Assembly (NCBI RefSeq): GCF_900106525.1
Contig: NZ_FNOG01000002.1
Coordinates: forward strand, 342,850 to 396,617
Direction: 5' to 3'
From: Lysobacter enzymogenes
Lineage (GTDB): Bacteria; Pseudomonadota; Gammaproteobacteria; Xanthomonadales; Xanthomonadaceae
DNA: 53,768 bases
The notes beneath the pieces were generated by a model, which saw nothing but the letters and a program-made list of their open reading frames with translations, had not been told where the DNA came from and did not search any database. Of the stretch, positions 3,725 through 16,621 are shown in pieces. Both the position numbers and the translations under genes were made by a program. The number at the start of each line of letters is the position of its first letter. The first letter of the stretch is position 1.

Positions 3725-4516
3725 ATGGACATCCCTACCCGCCTGCCGACCCTGTTCCTTTCGCACGGCTCGCCGATGCTGGCGCTGGAGGATTCGCCCG
3801 CCGGGCGTTTCCTCGATGCGCTCGGCCAGCAGCTGCCGTGGCCGCGCGCGATCGTGATCGCCTCGGCCCACTTCATGACCGACCGGCCGATGCTCGGCGG
3901 CCATGCGCAGCCGCACACCGTGCACGACTTCGGCGGTTTTCCGCAGCCGCTGTACCAGATCCAGTACCCCGCGCCGGGCCAGCCGCGGCTGGCCGAGCAG
4001 GTGCTCGCGCGCTTGGCCGATGCCGGTTTGAACCCGAAGCTGCGCGACAACCACGGGCTCGACCACGGCGTGTGGGTGCCGCTGCGGCGGATGTATCCGC
4101 AGGCCGATATTCCGGTGGTGCCGTTGTCGGTGCAGCCTTACGGCACCGCGGCCCAGCATTACGCGGTCGGCCAGGCGCTGGCGGCGCTGCGCGACGAAGG
4201 GGTGCTGGTGATCGGTTCGGGCGGTTTCGTGCACAACCTCGGCGATCTGGACTGGGGTCAGCGCGAGGCGCCGATGCCCGATTGGGCGGCGGAGTTCGCC
4301 GGCTGGATGCATGCGGCGTTGGCGGCGGGCGATCGCGAGGCGTTGCTCGATTGGCAGGCGCGGGCGCCGCATGCGCGGCGGGCGCATCCGACGGTGGAGC
4401 ATTTGATGCCGTTGTTCGTGGCCTTGGGTGCGGCGGGGGCGGAGCCGACGGCGCGGACGATTCATCGTTCGCATGAGATGGGGTCGTTGGCGTTGGATGC
4501 GTTTGCGTTCGATTGA
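3725..4516 (+). CDS. ygiD: 4,5-DOPA dioxygenase extradiol-like (LigB family, YgiD type)
   Basis: A 263-residue class III extradiol ring-cleavage dioxygenase-like enzyme of the LigB superfamily. YgiD-type members cleave DOPA, but the native substrate here is unknown. Probable metal-binding His residues lie in FLSHGSPM (residues 10-17), NHGLDHGVW and HPTVEHL. The signature IVIASAHF is near residue 44 and GSGGFVHNLGDL near 163. The start ATG 3725 gives the usual family N-terminus (MDIPTRLPTLFLSHG). A longer in-frame extension exists but crosses the prpD promoter region. It is divergent from prpD across 205 bases. The ribosome site is weak. Confidence 0.85.
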   Translation: MDIPTRLPTLFLSHGSPMLALEDSPAGRFLDALGQQLPWPRAIVIASAHFMTDRPMLGGHAQPHTVHDFGGFPQPLYQIQYPAPGQPRLAEQVLARLADAGLNPKLRDNHGLDHGVWVPLRRMYPQADIPVVPLSVQPYGTAAQHYAVGQALAALRDEGVLVIGSGGFVHNLGDLDWGQREAPMPDWAAEFAGWMHAALAAGDREALLDWQARAPHARRAHPTVEHLMPLFVALGAAGAEPTARTIHRSHEMGSLALDAFAFD

Positions 4517-10393: not shown

Positions 10394-13300
10394 TCAGTTG
10401 GCCCGGAGCGCCGTGCGGGTCGGCCGGCTGGCGCAGCGATACGCGGCGATTTCGTTGATGCGGATGCGGCTGGGATCGTGGTCCGGGCCGCGGTAGCCGA
10501 CGATGCGCAACTGCCCGATCCGGGTCGTCGGCAGGCGATGCTCGCGCACGGTCTGCACGTTGCCGCGCACTTCCTCGACCAGGCGCCAGGTCTCGCCGTC
10601 CAGATACTCCAGGTCGTAATCGCGCACTTCCCATCCGTCCGTGGTGTAGACCAGCACCTGATCGACCTCGGCCGCCGTCGGCAACGCGACCTGCAGCCGG
10701 TTGTAGAAGCTGGCCTTGGCCTGCGCCTTGTCCGCATCGCCCACGCTCGACCAGCTGTACTGGCCGCCGAAGGCGGTGTTGGTGTCGCCGTCGGTGGCGC
10801 GCGCGGCGCTGTAGCCGGGCGCCGTGTCGCTCGCGCTGGCCGCGCCGCCGGCCAGCAGATTGCCCGCGGCGCAGGCGCGCGGCGGCGCCGGGCCGAACAG
10901 GCGGTGATCGTAGGCCTGGGTCTGCAGTTGATCGTTCAACCACTCCGACAGGTTCGCCGCCGAGCGCTGATCGGTGGTGATCAGATTGGTCAGCCGATAC
11001 GGCCCGTCGCGGCGGCTGGCGAACAGGTCTTCGCCGGCGAAGCGCAGGCTCGCGGCGTTGGCGCCGACCGCGACCTCCAGCGGCACCGCCGCGTTGGCGA
11101 CCACTTGGCCGTCGCGGTCGACCAGATCGGCCGACACCATCGCCGCGCCCGCGTAGCTGGACTGGATCTCCACCGGAACCTCCAGCGCGGCGTAGCGCTT
11201 CGCCGACCCGTCGGGCAGCGGCACCGCGGTTTCCGCGCCGGTCACCCGCACGCCCAGGCTGCGCTTGCCGATCTGCACCGACTCGCTGCCGCCGCGTTCG
11301 AAATCCAGGCCGGTCGCGGTCAGGCCCGACACGAACCACGACACTTCGGCGTTGCCGGGCGCGTCGGGCACGTTGTAGCGGCCGACGAAGCGGCCGTCGT
11401 CGCGGCGCGCCAGCGGCAGCGTGTCGACCTTGCCGTCGATCGTGCGCACCTGCAGGTAGCCGGTCGCGCTCAACAGCGCGGAGGTCGGCTCCAGCACCAG
11501 TTCGGCCTGGGCGCCGCTGACCAGGAACGGGAACAACGCATCCAGCTGCACGCCCAACGGGCTGACGAACGAGGCCGAAGTCTCCAGTTCGGTGCTACCG
11601 GCGATATCCGAACCGCCTTCCACGATCATGCGCCAGCGCCCCGGGCGCGGCGCCAGCAGCTGATAGCTCGCAGTGGTGCCTTCGGCCTGATACAGCACCA
11701 TGTCGGGCTCGAGCTTGTCGGTGACCGGCTCGCCGGGTTGCGGCTCGCCGTCGTAGACCGACGCGGCGAACTCCGGATCGAACACGCGCCCGCTCGGATC
11801 GACCAAGGTCACGCGCGCGCTGCCGGCGCTCCAGCGCGCGGCGAACATCGTCGGGCTGCCGTCGATCAGCAGCTCGCGCTCGATCTTGCCGCCGGCCTTC
11901 AACACCGAACGCAGATTCAGGCTGCGCTGGTTGTATTCCTCGCCGGCGGCGAAACCGCTCGGCGCCGCCGGGTTGTAGACCGCCAGCGTGTCGCCGAGCG
12001 GTTCGGTCTCGCGCAGCAGACCGCCGCCGAACGGGAACTGGAACGAGGCCGAGCCGCAATGGCTGCGCGAACGCGCGACCAGCACCGGGTGCACGCAGTT
12101 CCAATAGGCGTGCCCGCTCAGGCCGCCGCTCCAGTTGTAGTAATCGCGCGAGCCCAGCGTCGGGGTGATATGGATTTCCTGGGTGTTCATGCGATCCAGG
12201 TAGCCCGGCATGCCGGTGGAACTGTAAGTCTGGATCAGGCCGTCGTCGGCGCCGGGAATCAACAGGCCCGAGGTCCAGCCCCAGCCGTTGCGGAATTCGA
12301 AGCTCGGCAGCGGGATCGAGAACAGGCAGATGCGGCGGCCGAAGATGCGGAAGCACACCTGATGCTGGCGCCACATCGGCGCGTCGCCGCCGACCGCGTG
12401 GTAGACCACGCCCGGGCGCTGGCCGTGGGTGATGTTGAACAGCTGCATGCTCGGTTTCATCATCTCGCACACCGCCGGCTGGTTCGGCAGGCAGGCCAGG
12501 CCGGTGATCGCCGGCGCGCCGCGGTGCGGGGTGCCGAAGCTGAAGAGCTGCGAGACGTCGTTGCGGTACAGCAGGCTCTCGACGTACGAGCGCGCGACCA
12601 GCCCGCCCATGCTGTGGGCGAACAGGATCACCCGCGGCTGGCCGGTTTCGTAGCGCGCAGTGTCGATGGCCGAACGCACGCGCAAGGCGTTCACCCGCAG
12701 CGGCGGGGTGAAGCCCAGGCTGGTCTGGATGTCGGCGTCGAAGCCGCGGTAGCCGGCTTGCCGCAACGCGTCGAATACCGGAGTGAAGCGGTTGATGTTG
12801 TCGGTCCAGCCGCTGACGTAGACGATCGGATTGCGCCGATAGCCCCACAGGATCGGCATCGACGGCGAACCGCCGTTGACCGCGATGGTGTAGCGGTCGC
12901 GCAGAAAAGCGTCGCTGCCGAAGGTCCAGCCGGCCAGCGCCGGGCGCGTGGTGTAGGTGCCCGCGGGCAGGCCGAGGAAGGTGTAGTTGCCGTTGCCGTC
13001 GGTGGTCGTGGTGCGCCCGCCGCCCAGATCGACCAGCGCGTTGGCCACCGGCGCGCCGGTGCCGAACTCGAGCACGCGACCGCGCAAGGTCGCGTTCTGG
13101 GCCGAGCGGCAGTCGTAGACTTCCAGCTCGTTGATGCGGAAGTAGAACGCCTGCGCCGCCGAACCGGTGATGCCGACGATGCGCACCGCATCGGCCAGGC
13201 GCGGCGCGAAGCGGTCGTCGCGCGACACGCCGGTGTTGCCGCGCACCGAATGCACCGTGGTCCAGCTGCCGCCGATGCGCAGTTGGATGTCGTAGGCGAT

Positions 13301-13639
13301 GGCTTCGTAGCCGCGCGTGGTGAAGAACTGCACCCGGTCGATATTGGCCGCGCTGGGCAGGAACAGGTCCAGGGTCATGGTCTGGCCGCGGTCGTTGACC
13401 CAGCTCGCCTGCCCGCCCAGATCGGTGCTGCGGTTGCCGTCGTTGACGCGCTGCGCGGAATAGCCCGGGTAAGTCGAATGGCCGACCGCGTTGCCGGCGC
13501 GGGCGAGATTGGGCGTGTCGCAGACCTGCGCGTGCGCAGGTGCGAGTGCGATCAGCGCGAACATCAGCGCGAGCGCGGCTCGGGTCAGCGACGACAGCCA
13601 AGGGCGAATGCGCGGGGTGATGCGGGCGGACGGGGCCAT
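10394..13639 (-). CDS. large secreted lipase-like alpha/beta hydrolase with two discoidin-like domains
   Basis: A 1081-residue secreted protein. The start ATG 13639 follows AGGAGGATCC, an excellent ribosome site. Signal peptide 1-37 ends APAHA. Residues 38-177 form a discoidin/F5-8C-like carbohydrate-binding domain (LARAGNAVGHSTYPGYSAQR, INELEVYDC). Residues 180-245 are a carboxypeptidase-regulatory-like beta domain (LRGRVLEFGTGAPVANALVD). Residues 270-550 are an alpha/beta hydrolase with nucleophile Ser near 343 in LFAHSMGGLVARS. Candidate acid and base are in PGADDGLIQ and LSGHAYWNCVH. Residues 560-900 are beta-rich. The C-terminus repeats a discoidin-like domain (NLLAGGAASASDTAPGYSAA, IRINEIAAYRC). 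The nucleophile elbow reads AHSMG rather than GHSMG. The domain order suggests a glycan- or membrane-targeted lipase. It is not clustered with a chaperone or secretion gene. Confidence 0.85.
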   Translation of the reverse strand: MAPSARITPRIRPWLSSLTRAALALMFALIALAPAHAQVCDTPNLARAGNAVGHSTYPGYSAQRVNDGNRSTDLGGQASWVNDRGQTMTLDLFLPSAANIDRVQFFTTRGYEAIAYDIQLRIGGSWTTVHSVRGNTGVSRDDRFAPRLADAVRIVGITGSAAQAFYFRINELEVYDCRSAQNATLRGRVLEFGTGAPVANALVDLGGGRTTTTDGNGNYTFLGLPAGTYTTRPALAGWTFGSDAFLRDRYTIAVNGGSPSMPILWGYRRNPIVYVSGWTDNINRFTPVFDALRQAGYRGFDADIQTSLGFTPPLRVNALRVRSAIDTARYETGQPRVILFAHSMGGLVARSYVESLLYRNDVSQLFSFGTPHRGAPAITGLACLPNQPAVCEMMKPSMQLFNITHGQRPGVVYHAVGGDAPMWRQHQVCFRIFGRRICLFSIPLPSFEFRNGWGWTSGLLIPGADDGLIQTYSSTGMPGYLDRMNTQEIHITPTLGSRDYYNWSGGLSGHAYWNCVHPVLVARSRSHCGSASFQFPFGGGLLRETEPLGDTLAVYNPAAPSGFAAGEEYNQRSLNLRSVLKAGGKIERELLIDGSPTMFAARWSAGSARVTLVDPSGRVFDPEFAASVYDGEPQPGEPVTDKLEPDMVLYQAEGTTASYQLLAPRPGRWRMIVEGGSDIAGSTELETSASFVSPLGVQLDALFPFLVSGAQAELVLEPTSALLSATGYLQVRTIDGKVDTLPLARRDDGRFVGRYNVPDAPGNAEVSWFVSGLTATGLDFERGGSESVQIGKRSLGVRVTGAETAVPLPDGSAKRYAALEVPVEIQSSYAGAAMVSADLVDRDGQVVANAAVPLEVAVGANAASLRFAGEDLFASRRDGPYRLTNLITTDQRSAANLSEWLNDQLQTQAYDHRLFGPAPPRACAAGNLLAGGAASASDTAPGYSAARATDGDTNTAFGGQYSWSSVGDADKAQAKASFYNRLQVALPTAAEVDQVLVYTTDGWEVRDYDLEYLDGETWRLVEEVRGNVQTVREHRLPTTRIGQLRIVGYRGPDHDPSRIRINEIAAYRCASRPTRTALRAN

Positions 13640-13942
13640 CGTCGGATCCTCCTGATCGCGGTGCGCGCCGGATCCGCAAGGCCGCGGGCCGGGGCGATTC
13701 CTGATTCGGCGCCAGTCAGCCCGAATCTCCGTCCGCCTGACGCGACCGCACTCACAGAAAGCGCCAGCGGCCGCGAGCCTCCGGACGGCCGGCGGGGTCA
13801 CTGTGCCGGCGCGCATGGATCGGTCGCGACGGCCGGCCGGAAACGGACGAGCGTGCGCTGGGCTTGCGGCCGTCCGCCGCGTTGCAGCCTGCGCACTGGC
13901 TGCGCAAAAAGCACGCATTCGCGCGGAAAATTGACAAAAAAA
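13640..13942. other. gene-free spacer upstream of the lipase gene
   Basis: About 300 bases upstream of the lipase gene and downstream of the EF-G terminator. Apart from the AGGAGG ribosome site immediately before 13639, I see no convincing gene, repeat or promoter hexamer pair. Confidence 0.5.
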
Positions 13943-13964
13943 GGGGGCCGGCGAACCGGCCCCC
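13943..13964 (-). terminator. strong intrinsic terminator of the EF-G paralogue
   Basis: Perfect 9-bp stem GGGGGCCGG/CCGGCCCCC with a CGAA loop, followed on the minus strand by seven T residues (TTTTTTTGTC). It lies 28 bases past the stop at 13992. This is a textbook Rho-independent terminator. Confidence 0.95.
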
Positions 13965-13991
13965 ATTCCATTTACTTCCGTTTAGCGCCGT

Positions 13992-16055
13992 TTATGCGGC
14001 TTTGGGCAAACCGCGCGCGACTTCGTAGCCGTCGAACACCATCGACGCCGACGCGCGGCCCTGACTCAGCGAACGCAGCGTCGTCGTATAGCCCGACAAC
14101 TGCGCCAGCGGCGCGCGTGCGGTGACATCGCTGCGGCCGCCCTTGTCCTCGATCGACAAGACCCGGCCGGAACGCCGCTGCAAGTCGCCGACCACGTCGC
14201 CGACGTTCGCCGCAGGCGTGTCCACCACCAGCGCCATCACCGGTTCGAGCAGGGTCGTGCCGGTTTGCGCCAGCGCGGCCTTGAGCGCCTCGGCGGCGGC
14301 GCGTTGGAACGCCATCTCCGAAGAGTCCACCGCGTGGGTTTCGCCGTCGGTCAAGGCGACGGTGAGCCCCACCACCGGGAAGCCTTGCGGCCCCTCGGCC
14401 AACGCCGCGCGCAGCCCCTTCTCGGTCGCGCCGACGAAGTTGCGCGGAACCACGCCGCCGACGGTGCGGTCGACGAACTCGAACTGCCCGTCCTCGCGCG
14501 GGGTCACATCGATGACCACACGCGCGAACTGGCCGCTGCCGCCGGTCTGCTTGGACAGCTTGCCCTCCACGCCTCGCACCGCGCGGCTCGGCGTTTCCTG
14601 ATAGGCCACGCGCGGCGAACCGGTGCGCACATCGACGTTCCACAGCTCGCGCAGGCGATCGACCATCACTTCCAGATGCAGCTCGCCCATGCCCCAGACC
14701 AAGGTCTCGCCCGTATCCGCATCCGTACCGACACGGAACGACGGATCCTGCTGGGCCAGACTCGCCAAGCCCTGTCCAAGACGAATCAGGTCGCTGGCCT
14801 TGGCCGCGGTCAACCGCCACGACAACACCGCCGGCTGCGCCTGGATGCTGTCGAGCGCCAAACGCTCGCCGGCATCGCTGAGGGTCTCGCCGCTGATCGC
14901 GTCTTTCCAGCCCACGACCGCGACGATCTCGCCCGCATACGCCACGTCCACGTCCTGGCCGCGGTCGGCCTGCACGACTTGCAGACGGCCCACGCGCAGC
15001 GCCTTCTCGCGTCGTGACGCCCACACCGTGTCGCCGACCCGCAACGTGCCCGAGTACAGGCGCACGAAGGTCTGCGCGCCGTGTTCCTGCTGCACGATCT
15101 TGAACACCAGACCGGCGAGCGGGCCGTTCGCGTCAGGCGCCAGTTCGACCTCGCCGCGTTCGCTTTGCGCGCACACGGCCGGCCGGTCCAGCGGCGACGG
15201 CAGGTAATCGACGATGGCGTCGAGCAGCGGTTCCACGCCCTTGTTCTTGAACGCAGAACCGGCCAGCACCGGGGTGCCCGCGCCGGCCAGGGTGGCCCGG
15301 CGCAGCGCGGCCTTGAGCAGCGCGGCGTCGATGGCGCGAGCGTCGAGGAAAGCCTCGGCGAGCGCGTCGTCGTGGTCGGCGACCGCTTCGATCAGGCGCT
15401 GACGCGCTGGTTCGAAACGGGCCGCTTCTTCGCTCGTCCACGCCTGCCGCGACAGGGTGCCGGCGTCGTCCCACGACACGCTTTCGCGCGCCACGTAGTC
15501 GATCCAGCCGCTCAAGTCGGATTCCGCGCCGACGGTTTCGCCCAGCGCCCACGGCACCGCGTCGAGCTTGTCGCGCATCTGCGTCAGGGTGCGCTCGAGC
15601 GAGGCGCCGACGCGGTCCATCTTGTTGACGAACGCGATCAGCGGCACGCCGTGGCGGCGCGCCTGGCGCCACACGGTTTCCGATTGCGGCTGCACGCCGT
15701 CGACGCCGCTGAACACCGCGACCGCGCCGTCGAGCACGCGCAGCGAGCGTTCGACTTCGATCGCGAAGTCGATGTGGCCCGGGGTGTCGATGACGGTCAG
15801 GCGATGCTCGGCGCCGTCGTGCGGCGTCCAGCGCGCCTGCACGGCGGCCGCGCCGATGGTGATGCCGCGGCGACGTTCGATCGGGTCGAAGTCGGTGGTG
15901 GCGGCGCCGTCGTGGACTTCGCCGGTGCGATGGATCGCGCCGGTTTTCCACAGCAGGCGTTCGGTCAGCGTGGTCTTGCCCGCGTCGACGTGGGCGATGA
16001 TGCCGAGGTTGCGCCAGCGGCGGATGGGGGTGTTGCCGGTAAGCGGGGTGTTCAT
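13992..16055 (-). CDS. elongation factor G paralogue
   Basis: A 687-residue translational GTPase of the EF-G family, which drives tRNA/mRNA translocation or ribosome recycling. The G1 motif AHVDAGKTT is at residues 21-29. Switch I has RRRGITIGAAA, G3 is DTPGHIDF with the catalytic His intact, and G4 is FVNKMDR. The domain II-V order is normal (VVIDVTPREDGQFEF; TETLV/WGMGELHLEV). It sits away from rpsL, rpsG and tuf, and its sequence departs from classical FusA (RRWRNLG, GAAAVQARW), so it is probably a second EF-G rather than the housekeeping copy. The start is ATG 16055; a TTG at 16079 is also in frame, and neither has a clear ribosome site. It is preceded by a structured leader with its own promoter and followed by a strong terminator, so it is monocistronic. 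Confidence 0.88.
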   Translation of the reverse strand: MNTPLTGNTPIRRWRNLGIIAHVDAGKTTLTERLLWKTGAIHRTGEVHDGAATTDFDPIERRRGITIGAAAVQARWTPHDGAEHRLTVIDTPGHIDFAIEVERSLRVLDGAVAVFSGVDGVQPQSETVWRQARRHGVPLIAFVNKMDRVGASLERTLTQMRDKLDAVPWALGETVGAESDLSGWIDYVARESVSWDDAGTLSRQAWTSEEAARFEPARQRLIEAVADHDDALAEAFLDARAIDAALLKAALRRATLAGAGTPVLAGSAFKNKGVEPLLDAIVDYLPSPLDRPAVCAQSERGEVELAPDANGPLAGLVFKIVQQEHGAQTFVRLYSGTLRVGDTVWASRREKALRVGRLQVVQADRGQDVDVAYAGEIVAVVGWKDAISGETLSDAGERLALDSIQAQPAVLSWRLTAAKASDLIRLGQGLASLAQQDPSFRVGTDADTGETLVWGMGELHLEVMVDRLRELWNVDVRTGSPRVAYQETPSRAVRGVEGKLSKQTGGSGQFARVVIDVTPREDGQFEFVDRTVGGVVPRNFVGATEKGLRAALAEGPQGFPVVGLTVALTDGETHAVDSSEMAFQRAAAEALKAALAQTGTTLLEPVMALVVDTPAANVGDVVGDLQRRSGRVLSIEDKGGRSDVTARAPLAQLSGYTTTLRSLSQGRASASMVFDGYEVARGLPKAA

Positions 16056-16090
16056 AAAAAGGTTCGCACTCGTGGCCAACGTCAGGGTCG

Positions 16091-16122
16091 CCGCGCGACC
16101 CGGTTGGCTGCGGGACGCGCGG
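16091..16122 (-). promoter_or_regulatory. hairpin between mini-ORF and EF-G start
   Basis: CCGCGCG-A-CCCG pairs with CGGG-A-CGCGCGG (7 bp, A/A mismatch, 4 bp; 8-base loop). It begins at the base after the stop codon of the mini-ORF 16123-16152 and ends about 35 bases before the EF-G ATG. Its position fits control of EF-G translation by ribosomes on the mini-ORF. Confidence 0.55.
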
Positions 16123-16152
16123 CTAGGCTTGGGTGTCTTCCGTGGTATTCAC
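16123..16152 (-). CDS. 9-codon mini-ORF with strong ribosome site in the EF-G leader
   Basis: GTG start at 16152 with AAGGAG 8 bases upstream (16161-16166), the best Shine-Dalgarno site in this leader. It encodes MNTTEDTQA and stops at TAG 16123-16125. It is out of frame with EF-G (offset 97 bases) and is followed at once by the hairpin 16091-16122. It could be a translated regulatory uORF, or a relic of a former gene start. It is too short for homology arguments. Confidence 0.45.
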   Translation of the reverse strand: MNTTEDTQA

Positions 16153-16234
16153 GACACGTTCTCCTTGGGTGTTCGGGCGATGCGGTTAGAAGGAAAGCCG
16201 GAGCGGGCCGGCGGTTTCGCAAACAGCGGGCAAT

Positions 16235-16258
16235 AAAAAAGCACCCGGATGGGTGCTT
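16235..16258 (-). terminator. intrinsic terminator/attenuator inside the EF-G leader
   Basis: Perfect 8-bp stem AAGCACCC/GGGTGCTT with a 4-base loop, followed on the minus strand by TTTTTTATT. It lies about 165 bases downstream of the predicted start of transcription and 180 bases before the EF-G start codon. A second copy of GGGTGC on the transcript (16328-16333, within the leader peptide ORF) could pair with the terminator's 5' arm and act as an antiterminator. Confidence 0.85.
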
Positions 16259-16271
16259 GCTTTCATGCGAC

Positions 16272-16310
16272 TCGGCTCAGCGCGGTTGGTCAGTTCGACC
16301 GCGAAGCCAA
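16272..16310 (-). promoter_or_regulatory. leader hairpin overlapping the end of the leader-peptide ORF
   Basis: On the minus strand, TTGGCT plus CGCGGT pair with ACCGCG plus AGCCGA (small internal loops, 10-base apex). The structure spans codons 27-32 and the stop of the ORF 16290-16388 and sits 13 bases ahead of the terminator, the position expected for a pause or antiterminator element in transcription attenuation. Confidence 0.6.
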
Positions 16311-16388
16311 GATCGCAGGAGGCAGGCGCACCCGGCCCGCGCTCGCGCGCAGGGCGTTCAGCGATATCAGGAGCGGGAAGCGCTGCAT
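16290..16388 (-). CDS. putative 32-residue leader peptide upstream of EF-G paralogue
   Basis: ATG 16388 to TGA 16290. The peptide starts MQRFPLLISLNAL and ends ASRSN; it has 6 Leu, 6 Ala, 5 Arg and no Trp, His or Thr run. One codon is ATA, rare in this GC-rich genome. The ribosome site is weak. The ORF starts about 36 bases after the predicted transcription start; its codons 19-21 (CGG GTG CGC) carry the GGGTGC that can compete with the downstream terminator stem, and its 3' end overlaps a hairpin. This is the layout of an attenuation leader peptide. Coding is inferred from architecture, not homology. Confidence 0.5.
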   Translation of the reverse strand: MQRFPLLISLNALRASAGRVRLPPAILASRSN

Positions 16389-16430
16389 GATGGGGCGGCC
16401 TGAGGAAAGGGGTGGGTGTTGCGTGTGCAT

Positions 16431-16458
16431 ATCGTAGGGGCGGCGCGGCGGGAGTCAA
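16431..16458 (-). promoter_or_regulatory. sigma-70-type promoter of the EF-G leader
   Basis: On the minus strand, TTGACT (16453-16458) and TACGAT (16431-16436) with a 16-base spacer match 5/6 and 4/6 of the consensus, unusually good for this GC-rich window. The predicted start of transcription is near 16424, giving a 5' leader of about 370 bases before the EF-G start codon. Confidence 0.7.
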
Positions 16459-16520: not shown

Positions 16521-16621
16521 CCTGTAGGAGCGGCGCGAGCCGCGACCGCGACAACGCAACCATGACGAAGGTTGCGGCGTAGTTGCGTTGTCGCAGTCGC
16601 GGCTTGCGCCGCTCCTACAGG
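16521..16621. repeat. REP pair (GTAGGAGC family)
   Basis: Two long inverted arms beginning CCTGTAGGAGCGGCGCGAGC and ending GGCTTGCGCCGCTCCTACAGG form a ~40-bp imperfect stem, extended by GCGACAACGCAAC/GTTGCGTTGTCGC. It lies between the condensin operon end and the EF-G promoter and may protect the condensin transcript 3' end. Confidence 0.9.

Follow-up and report, generated by a model that had tools for sequence, protein, structure and literature searches.

Several bacteria have more than one elongation factor G (EF-G), and the use made of the second is mostly unclear. Here we describe the region upstream of such a second EF-G gene in Lysobacter enzymogenes, within a 53,768-nucleotide (nt) stretch of contig NZ_FNOG01000002.1 (positions 342,850 to 396,617 of the forward strand), which we call the window and whose numbering is used throughout. 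On the minus strand, the block from 16458 to 16056 holds, in order, a promoter, a short open reading frame (ORF1), an intrinsic terminator and a second short open reading frame (ORF2), followed from 16055 by the gene for the EF-G paralogue. An initial annotation had listed a promoter, a 32-codon ORF1, a terminator, a 9-codon ORF2 with a Shine-Dalgarno sequence and the EF-G start, and had read them as the parts of a transcription plus translation attenuator. All of these lie on the minus strand as claimed and the anatomy is real, although the list left out a hairpin (P1, 16353-16336) situated 5′ of the antiterminator strand; the interpretation as a whole is partly supported by the analysis presented here. 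Judged from sequence comparison and predicted folding, the block is probably a two-stage leader that governs a spare, translocase-type EF-G through transcription attenuation combined with a translational element. Its features, and the gene that it precedes, are as follows.

16431-16458, minus strand: promoter TTGACT-N16-TACGAT (sequence scan; form kept across the genus)
16290-16388, minus strand: ORF1, 32 codons, MQRFPLLISLNALRASAGRVRLPPAILASRSN (open reading frame and conservation)
16336-16353, minus strand: hairpin P1 (CCTGCGC-GCGA-GCGCGGG), in ORF1, abutting the 5′ side of AT5 (hairpin search)
16328-16333, minus strand: AT5, the antiterminator strand GGGTGC, ORF1 codons 19-21 (complementarity to T5)
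16251-16333, minus strand: predicted antiterminator hairpin, with AT5/T5 at its base and the ORF1 stop near its apex (predicted folds)
16251-16256, minus strand: T5, the terminator 5′ arm GCACCC, common to antiterminator and terminator (pairing analysis)
16235-16258, minus strand: intrinsic terminator AAGCACCC-ATCC-GGGTGCTT with a T-run, stem 16258-16239 (terminator scan and conservation)
16161-16166, minus strand: Shine-Dalgarno sequence AAGGAG of ORF2 (sequence and conservation)
16123-16152, minus strand: ORF2, 9 codons, GTG start, VNTTEDTQA, TAG stop (open reading frame and conservation)
16075-16123, minus strand: putative H-type pseudoknot with helices S1 (16123-16116/16097-16090) and S2 (16108-16103/16080-16075) (covariation)
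13992-16055, minus strand: EF-G paralogue, the controlled gene (ATG at 16055; TIGR00484; Pfam EF-G domains)

The EF-G paralogue and its distribution

The product of the controlled gene scores above the curated NCBIfam cut-off for EF-G (TIGR00484, 717.3 bits vs 659.4) and below that of the tetracycline ribosome-protection model NF012153 (366.3 vs 775 bits). Its identity with the canonical EF-G encoded in the same genome is about 44%, and in a tree 86 paralogues group as a single clade, separate from eight canonical EF-Gs (FastTree support 0.983). Because these 86 sequences share, without variation, both GTPase motifs (AH.DAGKTT and DTPGH) and a histidine close to the tip of domain IV, the paralogue looks, by its sequence, like a working translocase; the histidine occupies the position that we take to be His583 of E. 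coli EF-G.

The paralogue is present in all 20 genomes of the genus, in 73 of 395 family genomes (E 1e-200), in 42 of 299 order genomes (E 1e-187) and in three of 369 class genomes (E 1e-190). Orthologues outside the order were sought in 398 phylum genomes (E 1e-187) and rejected: nine genomes gave a match, five of them Lysobacterales (69-100% identity) and four others with 46-47% identity. One match (G553:C1:3772797-3774842) contains a single in-frame TAG. A mobile or viral origin was considered and rejected: in a search confined to close relatives, the two viral-contig relatives are 41% identical, and 64 plasmid records all lie below 60%.

The leader block accompanies the paralogue

For comparison, 90 distinct upstream regions were gathered, 75 of them through EF-G alone and 15 (12 Luteibacter and three Tahibacter) through a combined leader/terminator pattern that was written from the window sequence and its relatives and that itself requires AT5, T5 and the terminator strand T3. 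One region, from a broken assembly with Ns in the leader (L139), was dropped, leaving 89 for the counts given below. Among the order genomes, L192, L193 and L194 are identical to L063, L066 and L068, which had already been collected, L177 is new and enters no total of 89, and 11 further g550 genomes were not fetched. We use “Stenotrophomonas-like”, by inference, as a label for genus g29.

The conservation anticipated in the initial annotation is borne out. Each of the 20 genus genomes has the 403-nt block (69-100% identity) directly 5′ of the paralogue, leader and terminator are carried by 72 of the 73 family genomes selected by EF-G alone (the 73rd being the broken assembly), and the block is also found upstream of the paralogue in genomes G070 and G061. 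The combined pattern occurs once in the window and in none of 100 shuffles. Across a collection of 84,980 species it marks 38 stretches, with Lysobacter, Luteibacter, Xanthomonas and Tahibacter in the contig titles; 29 have an EF-G motif 160-231 nt downstream, and three are in Lysobacter, Luteibacter or Lysobacteraceae records for which the sequence retrieved stops short of the range of the EF-G motif. Other genes behind the same leader were sought in these matches and rejected as candidates: the remaining six matches, in unrelated bacteria outside Lysobacterales, lack an EF-G motif in the next 400 nt and are probably fortuitous, although their neighbouring genes were not identified.

The promoter at 16458-16431 is the sole promoter-like site between 15000 and 17500 (0.1 expected), and TTGACT-N14-20-TANNNT precedes ORF1 in every one of the 20 genus genomes. 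In the window, 42 nt separate the end of the −10 box from the ORF1 ATG, and ORF1 has no clear Shine-Dalgarno sequence. In L119, L131, L141 and their sisters a TAGAAT box stands only ~7 nt before the ORF1 ATG, so that in Stenotrophomonas-like genomes ORF1 may begin a leaderless RNA. No Rfam 15 family reached its gathering score over the block when the window was searched, and a scan of eight relatives gave as its sole match a cobalamin riboswitch elsewhere in L063 (Luteibacter jiangsuensis; 4279-4494, 112.2 bits), within the 8-kb stretch that also holds the paralogue.

A predicted antiterminator/terminator switch

Within ORF1, GGGTGC (16333-16328) is complementary to GCACCC (16256-16251) in the 5′ arm of the terminator, as the initial annotation had pointed out, and this antiterminator-like pairing is kept at six of six positions in all 89 regions, scored with the best window taken. 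In L088 the partner chosen in this way lies one element farther upstream than in its sister sequences. A terminator-like hairpin is present in 89 of the 90 regions, L139 being the exception (in L018 the terminator scan chose a different hairpin, and the homologous one was counted in the pairing analysis); terminator-like sites alone are common, with two found vs 2.3 expected. The comparison supports covariation of leader and terminator strands: the AT5/T5/T3 triplet reads GGGTGC/GCACCC/GGGTGC in 58 regions, GGGCGT/GCGCCC/GGGCGC in 16 and GGGCGC/GCGCCC/GGGCGC in eight, while the other seven are one base off, among them L149 with a U-G intermediate (GGGTGC/GCGCCC/GGGCGC). Two alignments, A1 and A2, were made from 60 of 75 non-Luteibacter sequences by taking out near-identical ones; L023 and the 12 Luteibacter sequences were too different to be included, and L110 has an ORF2 too long for the parser. 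In A2, 99.7% of AT5:T5 cells are paired, vs 32-59% when the strands are slid. Three of the 12 Luteibacter regions found by the pattern were also recovered by EF-G alone.

Predicted folding is consistent with two mutually exclusive structures that compete for T5. In RNAs ending just past T5, the antiterminator base has a probability of at least 0.5 in 88 of 89 regions; with T3 added, the antiterminator reaches 0.5 in 57 of 89 and the terminator in 29 of 89, and this predicted near-balance is as expected of an attenuator. Antiterminator energies are below those of shuffled sequences (mean z −2.66, with 28 of 34 sequences below −1; the 34 were hand-chosen from the 89 for spread). The hairpin that the initial annotation had placed over the end of ORF1 is there, but in the predicted folds it forms the apex of one long antiterminator hairpin.

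ORF1 may be read by ribosome position

ORF1 is present in all 77 non-Luteibacter regions and in all 12 from Luteibacter. Hairpin P1 has at least four pairs in 77 of 77 non-Luteibacter regions, counted without a shuffle control, and in none of the 12 Luteibacter regions by the same strict search, where by eye one lies slightly farther upstream. Conservation of the ORF1 peptide is divided. Of the 77 non-Luteibacter ORF1s, 75 have PLL among their first 12 residues and most have an R.SA.R..LP-like stretch over P1 and the antiterminator strand, and third positions take most of the changes in the eight codons before P1, both in the genus (96/89/253 by codon position) and in Stenotrophomonas-like genomes (43/143/299). 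In Luteibacter, on the other hand, the GGGTGC strand lies in another reading frame and the peptide is unrelated, yet ORF1 has 31-33 codons in 12 of 12, starts 18-19 codons before the codon preceding GGG and stops 30-36 nt 5′ of T5 (12 of 12; three also have an upstream in-frame ATG). Because the length and place of ORF1 are kept while its peptide is not, it seems to be the position of the ribosome on ORF1, and not the peptide, that is read. An AUA codon, found in codons 2-12 of 47 of 77 non-Luteibacter ORF1s vs none of 98 isoleucine codons in three genes of the window, may add a slow step.

ORF2 and a putative pseudoknot precede the EF-G start

The Shine-Dalgarno sequence of ORF2 is strongly conserved, with GGAG in 76 of 76 regions and AAGGAG in 64 of 76 (Luteibacter and L110 are outside this count). 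ORF2 has nine codons in 78 of 89 regions and otherwise 10 (two), 14 (eight) or 22 (one); its stop adjoins S1, or in eight regions lies beyond it. The stop beside S1 is lost in L111, L113, L118, L121, L154, L155, L159 and L160, where ORF2 runs for 14 codons into the pseudoknot, and in L110 it runs for 22. Within 16150-16166, the spacer ACGTGYC between Shine-Dalgarno sequence and start is nearly fixed, largely so in Luteibacter too; of 21 genomes searched for the 15-base word there, 12 have it once and two have it twice (14 in all). A pattern combining the Shine-Dalgarno sequence, ORF2 and GCCAAC was matched by 21 of 41 relatives, once in each and at no second place; these are G061, G070 and all genus genomes but G010, which the pattern misses (19 of 20).

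The initial annotation had drawn a second hairpin between ORF2 and EF-G. A structured element does lie there, but on the comparative evidence it is better described as an H-type pseudoknot (16123-16075) of two interleaved helices. Over the 60 sequences, 97.9% of S1 and S2 cells are paired, and eight of 11 S1 pairs are changed on both sides; the 63 double-change cells in S1 compare with a shuffle mean of 14.7, are reached by none of 500 shuffles and drop to 0-12 when the strands are slid. The Luteibacter sequences have a different S2, in which GCCAGGGGC faces GCCCCTGGC-like partners over 8-9 pairs (12 of 12), and their S1, assigned by eye, is CCCCGATCC:GGATCGGGG-like, with mismatches in some and a different S1 needed for L066 and L070. 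The covariation to be expected from the initial annotation is seen for the AT5/T5/T3 strands and, strongly, for S1; S2 is the same in all 60 sequences and is replaced in Luteibacter by another complementary pair of strands.

Of the 89 regions, 88 have 14-26 nt between the pseudoknot end and the EF-G ATG (about 18 in the window) and one has eight; the spacing between terminator and ORF2, by contrast, varies from 37 to 133 nt (76 regions), and only 56 of 89 have a Shine-Dalgarno-like word before the EF-G ATG. Taken together, these features point to ORF2 and the pseudoknot being a translational element, for which ribosomes at the end of ORF2, recycling or a bound protein are possible triggers.

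Neighbouring features

Downstream of EF-G, the gene at 10397-13966 (1190 residues) gives F5/8 type C, carboxypeptidase-regulatory-like and alpha/beta-hydrolase-like matches and no NCBIfam match; it is present at one of 88 loci, 23 of which extend only 1.5 kb past the EF-G gene. On the other side, between a gene for an MksB-like (condensin) protein and the leader promoter, lies a long imperfect inverted repeat (16521-16620; CTGTAGGAGCGGCGCAAGCCGCGAC... and its complement), which may be the 3′ end of the condensin operon or a repeat element.

Discussion

The first stage of the leader is very likely ribosome-mediated transcription attenuation. In the nascent RNA, P1 would form first and then the long antiterminator hairpin, whose GGGTGC:GCACCC base would hide the 5′ arm of the terminator. 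A ribosome that tracks the polymerase through ORF1 would melt the antiterminator and allow the terminator to form, and the antiterminator would stay intact, with readthrough as the outcome, if the ribosome is missing, delayed or held up within the first ~18 codons. Since a lagging ribosome would leave the antiterminator in place, the EF-G paralogue would be on when translation lags; we infer this direction of control from the leader geometry and from the behaviour of ermK-type attenuators as described in an excerpt of PMC5418344. The signal would presumably be a general slowing of elongation, for example by a shortage of EF-G or by inhibitors. That the second stage is a translational element is likely as well, if with less assurance, and its exact mode can be given only tentatively: ribosomes would load strongly on ORF2 and meet the pseudoknot that starts at the ORF2 stop, and their occupancy at the end of ORF2 would set access to, or re-initiation at, the EF-G start.

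It is tempting, if rather improbable, to go further and consider the leader as an autogenous meter of EF-G activity, with one ORF for each job of the factor. ORF1 would report on translocation, as the ribosome must get past P1 before the antiterminator is lost. ORF2 would report on recycling, which needs EF-G together with ribosome recycling factor; ribosomes left at the ORF2 stop would hold the pseudoknot open and re-initiate at EF-G. If this were true, production of the spare EF-G would be confined to times when the main one is in short supply or blocked.

Several observations weigh against the two-stage reading. With regard to the switch, the change from U-A to C-G in the antiterminator base is confined to one clade and may for this reason be a single event; only one AT5:T5 pair is changed on both sides, much like shuffles (498 of 500), and a single cell does not pair. 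In single sequences the complementarity of AT5 and T5 is in most cases only moderately unlikely by chance and, for many members of the GCGCCC clade, not even that. The 15 regions found by the pattern (12 Luteibacter, three Tahibacter) pair by construction, since the pattern requires AT5, T5 and T3, and L177, which was selected by EF-G alone and has ORF1, ORF2 and both S2 strands, pairs at only five of six positions. When AT5 and T5 are held fixed and the sequence between them is shuffled, the helix still forms (mean 0.76 vs 0.99 for the real sequences), and consensus folds made clade by clade retain only part of the inner hairpin. For ORF1, no third-position excess is seen in Xanthomonas-like genomes (524/277/403), nor, in the genus, in the codons after the antiterminator strand (72/284/257). 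As to the second stage, the ORF2 peptide is variable and likewise has no third-position excess (310/136/253, genus); S2 (GCCAAC:GTTGGC) is invariant in A1 and so is uninformative there; a nested fold of the window element, from a program that cannot draw pseudoknots, gives S1 without S2; and G061 (L023) retains the leader, ORF2 and S2 with, by eye, no clear S1.

For the second stage, the alternative to a response to ribosomes on ORF2 is that the pseudoknot is bound by a protein, which may be the paralogue itself, or that it traps the 30S subunit, for which the rpsO leader is a precedent. The near-constant distance to the EF-G start and the invariance of S2 in the 60 aligned sequences would fit such a site; ORF2, with its strong Shine-Dalgarno sequence and its end at or in S1, is however conserved as well, and a simple protein site would need no ORF. 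We regard this alternative as somewhat unlikely.

For the first stage, a drug-specific attenuator of the erm or hflXr kind, in which an antibiotic would stall translation of ORF1 at one particular place in the peptide and the paralogue would be a resistance factor, is unlikely too. The early PLL and the third-position changes before P1 are what such a mechanism would lead one to look for, and RVR, found in 48 of 77 ORF1s, resembles the RLR motif of hflXr (PMC6310831, in excerpt). RVR, however, is encoded by the antiterminator strand itself and differs in 29 of 77 (RAC in 14, RAR in eight, RVC in three, and four others), Luteibacter has a GCAR-type sequence at this position within its unrelated peptide, and a ribosome held at RVR would cover AT5 and so favour termination. 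No conserved RLR-type arrest motif was found in the 77 non-Luteibacter ORF1s or in those of Luteibacter.

It is less probable still that ORF1 is an amino-acid attenuator of the trp or his type, stalling the ribosome when one charged tRNA is short. The early codons are leucine-rich and AUA is frequent in codons 2-12, as noted above, but the ORF1 peptides examined have no run of a single amino acid, and in place of one show KFF or TFF in Stenotrophomonas-like leaders and HxLIH or HVPPIAP in Luteibacter; the lack of peptide conservation into Luteibacter itself speaks against the sensing of one amino acid, and the controlled gene is not biosynthetic.

The initial annotation had named, among the findings that would overturn its reading, a terminator that only ends the condensin operon, with an EF-G promoter farther down. 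The terminator does sit between the MksB-like gene and EF-G here, and terminator-like sites by themselves are not rare. The MksB-like neighbour, however, is present at only 15 of the 85 loci with enough upstream DNA (15 of all 88), all within the genus, and at none of 65 loci outside it; since the leader stays with EF-G regardless, the terminator is not simply the end of the condensin operon. The sole promoter-like site, moreover, lies 5′ of ORF1, in a form kept throughout the genus, and we consider this explanation very improbable. Finally, recoding sites typically have a stop codon immediately 5′ of a pseudoknot, and the ORF2 stop is so placed, but a frameshift or readthrough from ORF2 into EF-G is hardly credible, given that the EF-G ATG falls in all three frames relative to ORF2 (34/32/23 of the 89 regions), and an ORF2-EF-G fusion was rejected.

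It is informative to examine the two-stage leader in light of known systems. The ribosome-protection proteins encoded by tetM and tetQ are relatives of EF-G. Judging from excerpts of the papers cited here, the principle of attenuation through a leader ORF is long known (tetM, tetQ, hflXr, vmlR), and the leader is closest to vmlR in design, to tetM and tetQ in the gene controlled and to hflXr in setting. The vmlR leader of Bacillus subtilis has both layers of control, sharing with the present one an upstream ORF, an antiterminator/terminator switch, an extra control at the gene start and a product that acts on the ribosome (PMC9226507). It differs in that the gene is of the ABC-F type and its leader contains, besides an anti-antiterminator hairpin, one that hides the Shine-Dalgarno sequence; the excerpt mentions no second ORF or pseudoknot, and pausing was mapped experimentally there (PMC9226507). 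tetM has a transcription attenuator and tetQ a translation attenuator, both for ribosome-protection proteins (PMC5418344), while the present product scores above the cut-off for EF-G and below that for tetracycline protection. In Listeria, hflXr/rli80 likewise places a short ORF and a terminator/antiterminator before a ribosome-acting factor, but its 14-residue peptide carries the RLR arrest motif, and the excerpt does not mention a second ORF or a pseudoknot (PMC6310831).

With respect to EF-G itself, the initial annotation had held that no such control was known for any EF-G gene. For this gene none was found: among the matches listed in open-licence literature, no description of an attenuator for the EF-G paralogue appears, nor of one that acts on a translocase-type EF-G and has a pseudoknot in its second stage, which is no proof of absence. 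As a general statement the claim is too broad in view of the tetM and tetQ attenuators (PMC5418344) and of a transcription attenuator predicted upstream of canonical fusA in streptococci (PMC2965389). The latter, however, belongs to the canonical str operon, was treated among the rpsL-leaders as a ribosomal-protein leader and, in the excerpt, is described without a leader ORF (PMC2965389). Other spare EF-G genes also lie outside the str operon, namely those of Pseudomonas aeruginosa, where EF-G1A and EF-G1B are 84% identical vs 44% here (PMC3832671), and of Bacteroides, where the title of the paper names a master regulator as the control (PMC6989115); no comparable leader is mentioned for either in the text consulted (PMC3832671, PMC6989115). 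What appears to be new is the target, a translocase-type EF-G, together with an ORF1 that tolerates a different peptide and the coupling of a second ORF to a pseudoknot.

Within one group of an order, the leader offers a testable answer to the question of when a second EF-G is used, namely when translation falls behind transcription. Control of this kind would carry ribosome-mediated attenuation from genes of resistance and biosynthesis to a core elongation factor, and the conserved pseudoknot that would lie directly 5′ of the start codon provides an object for structural work.

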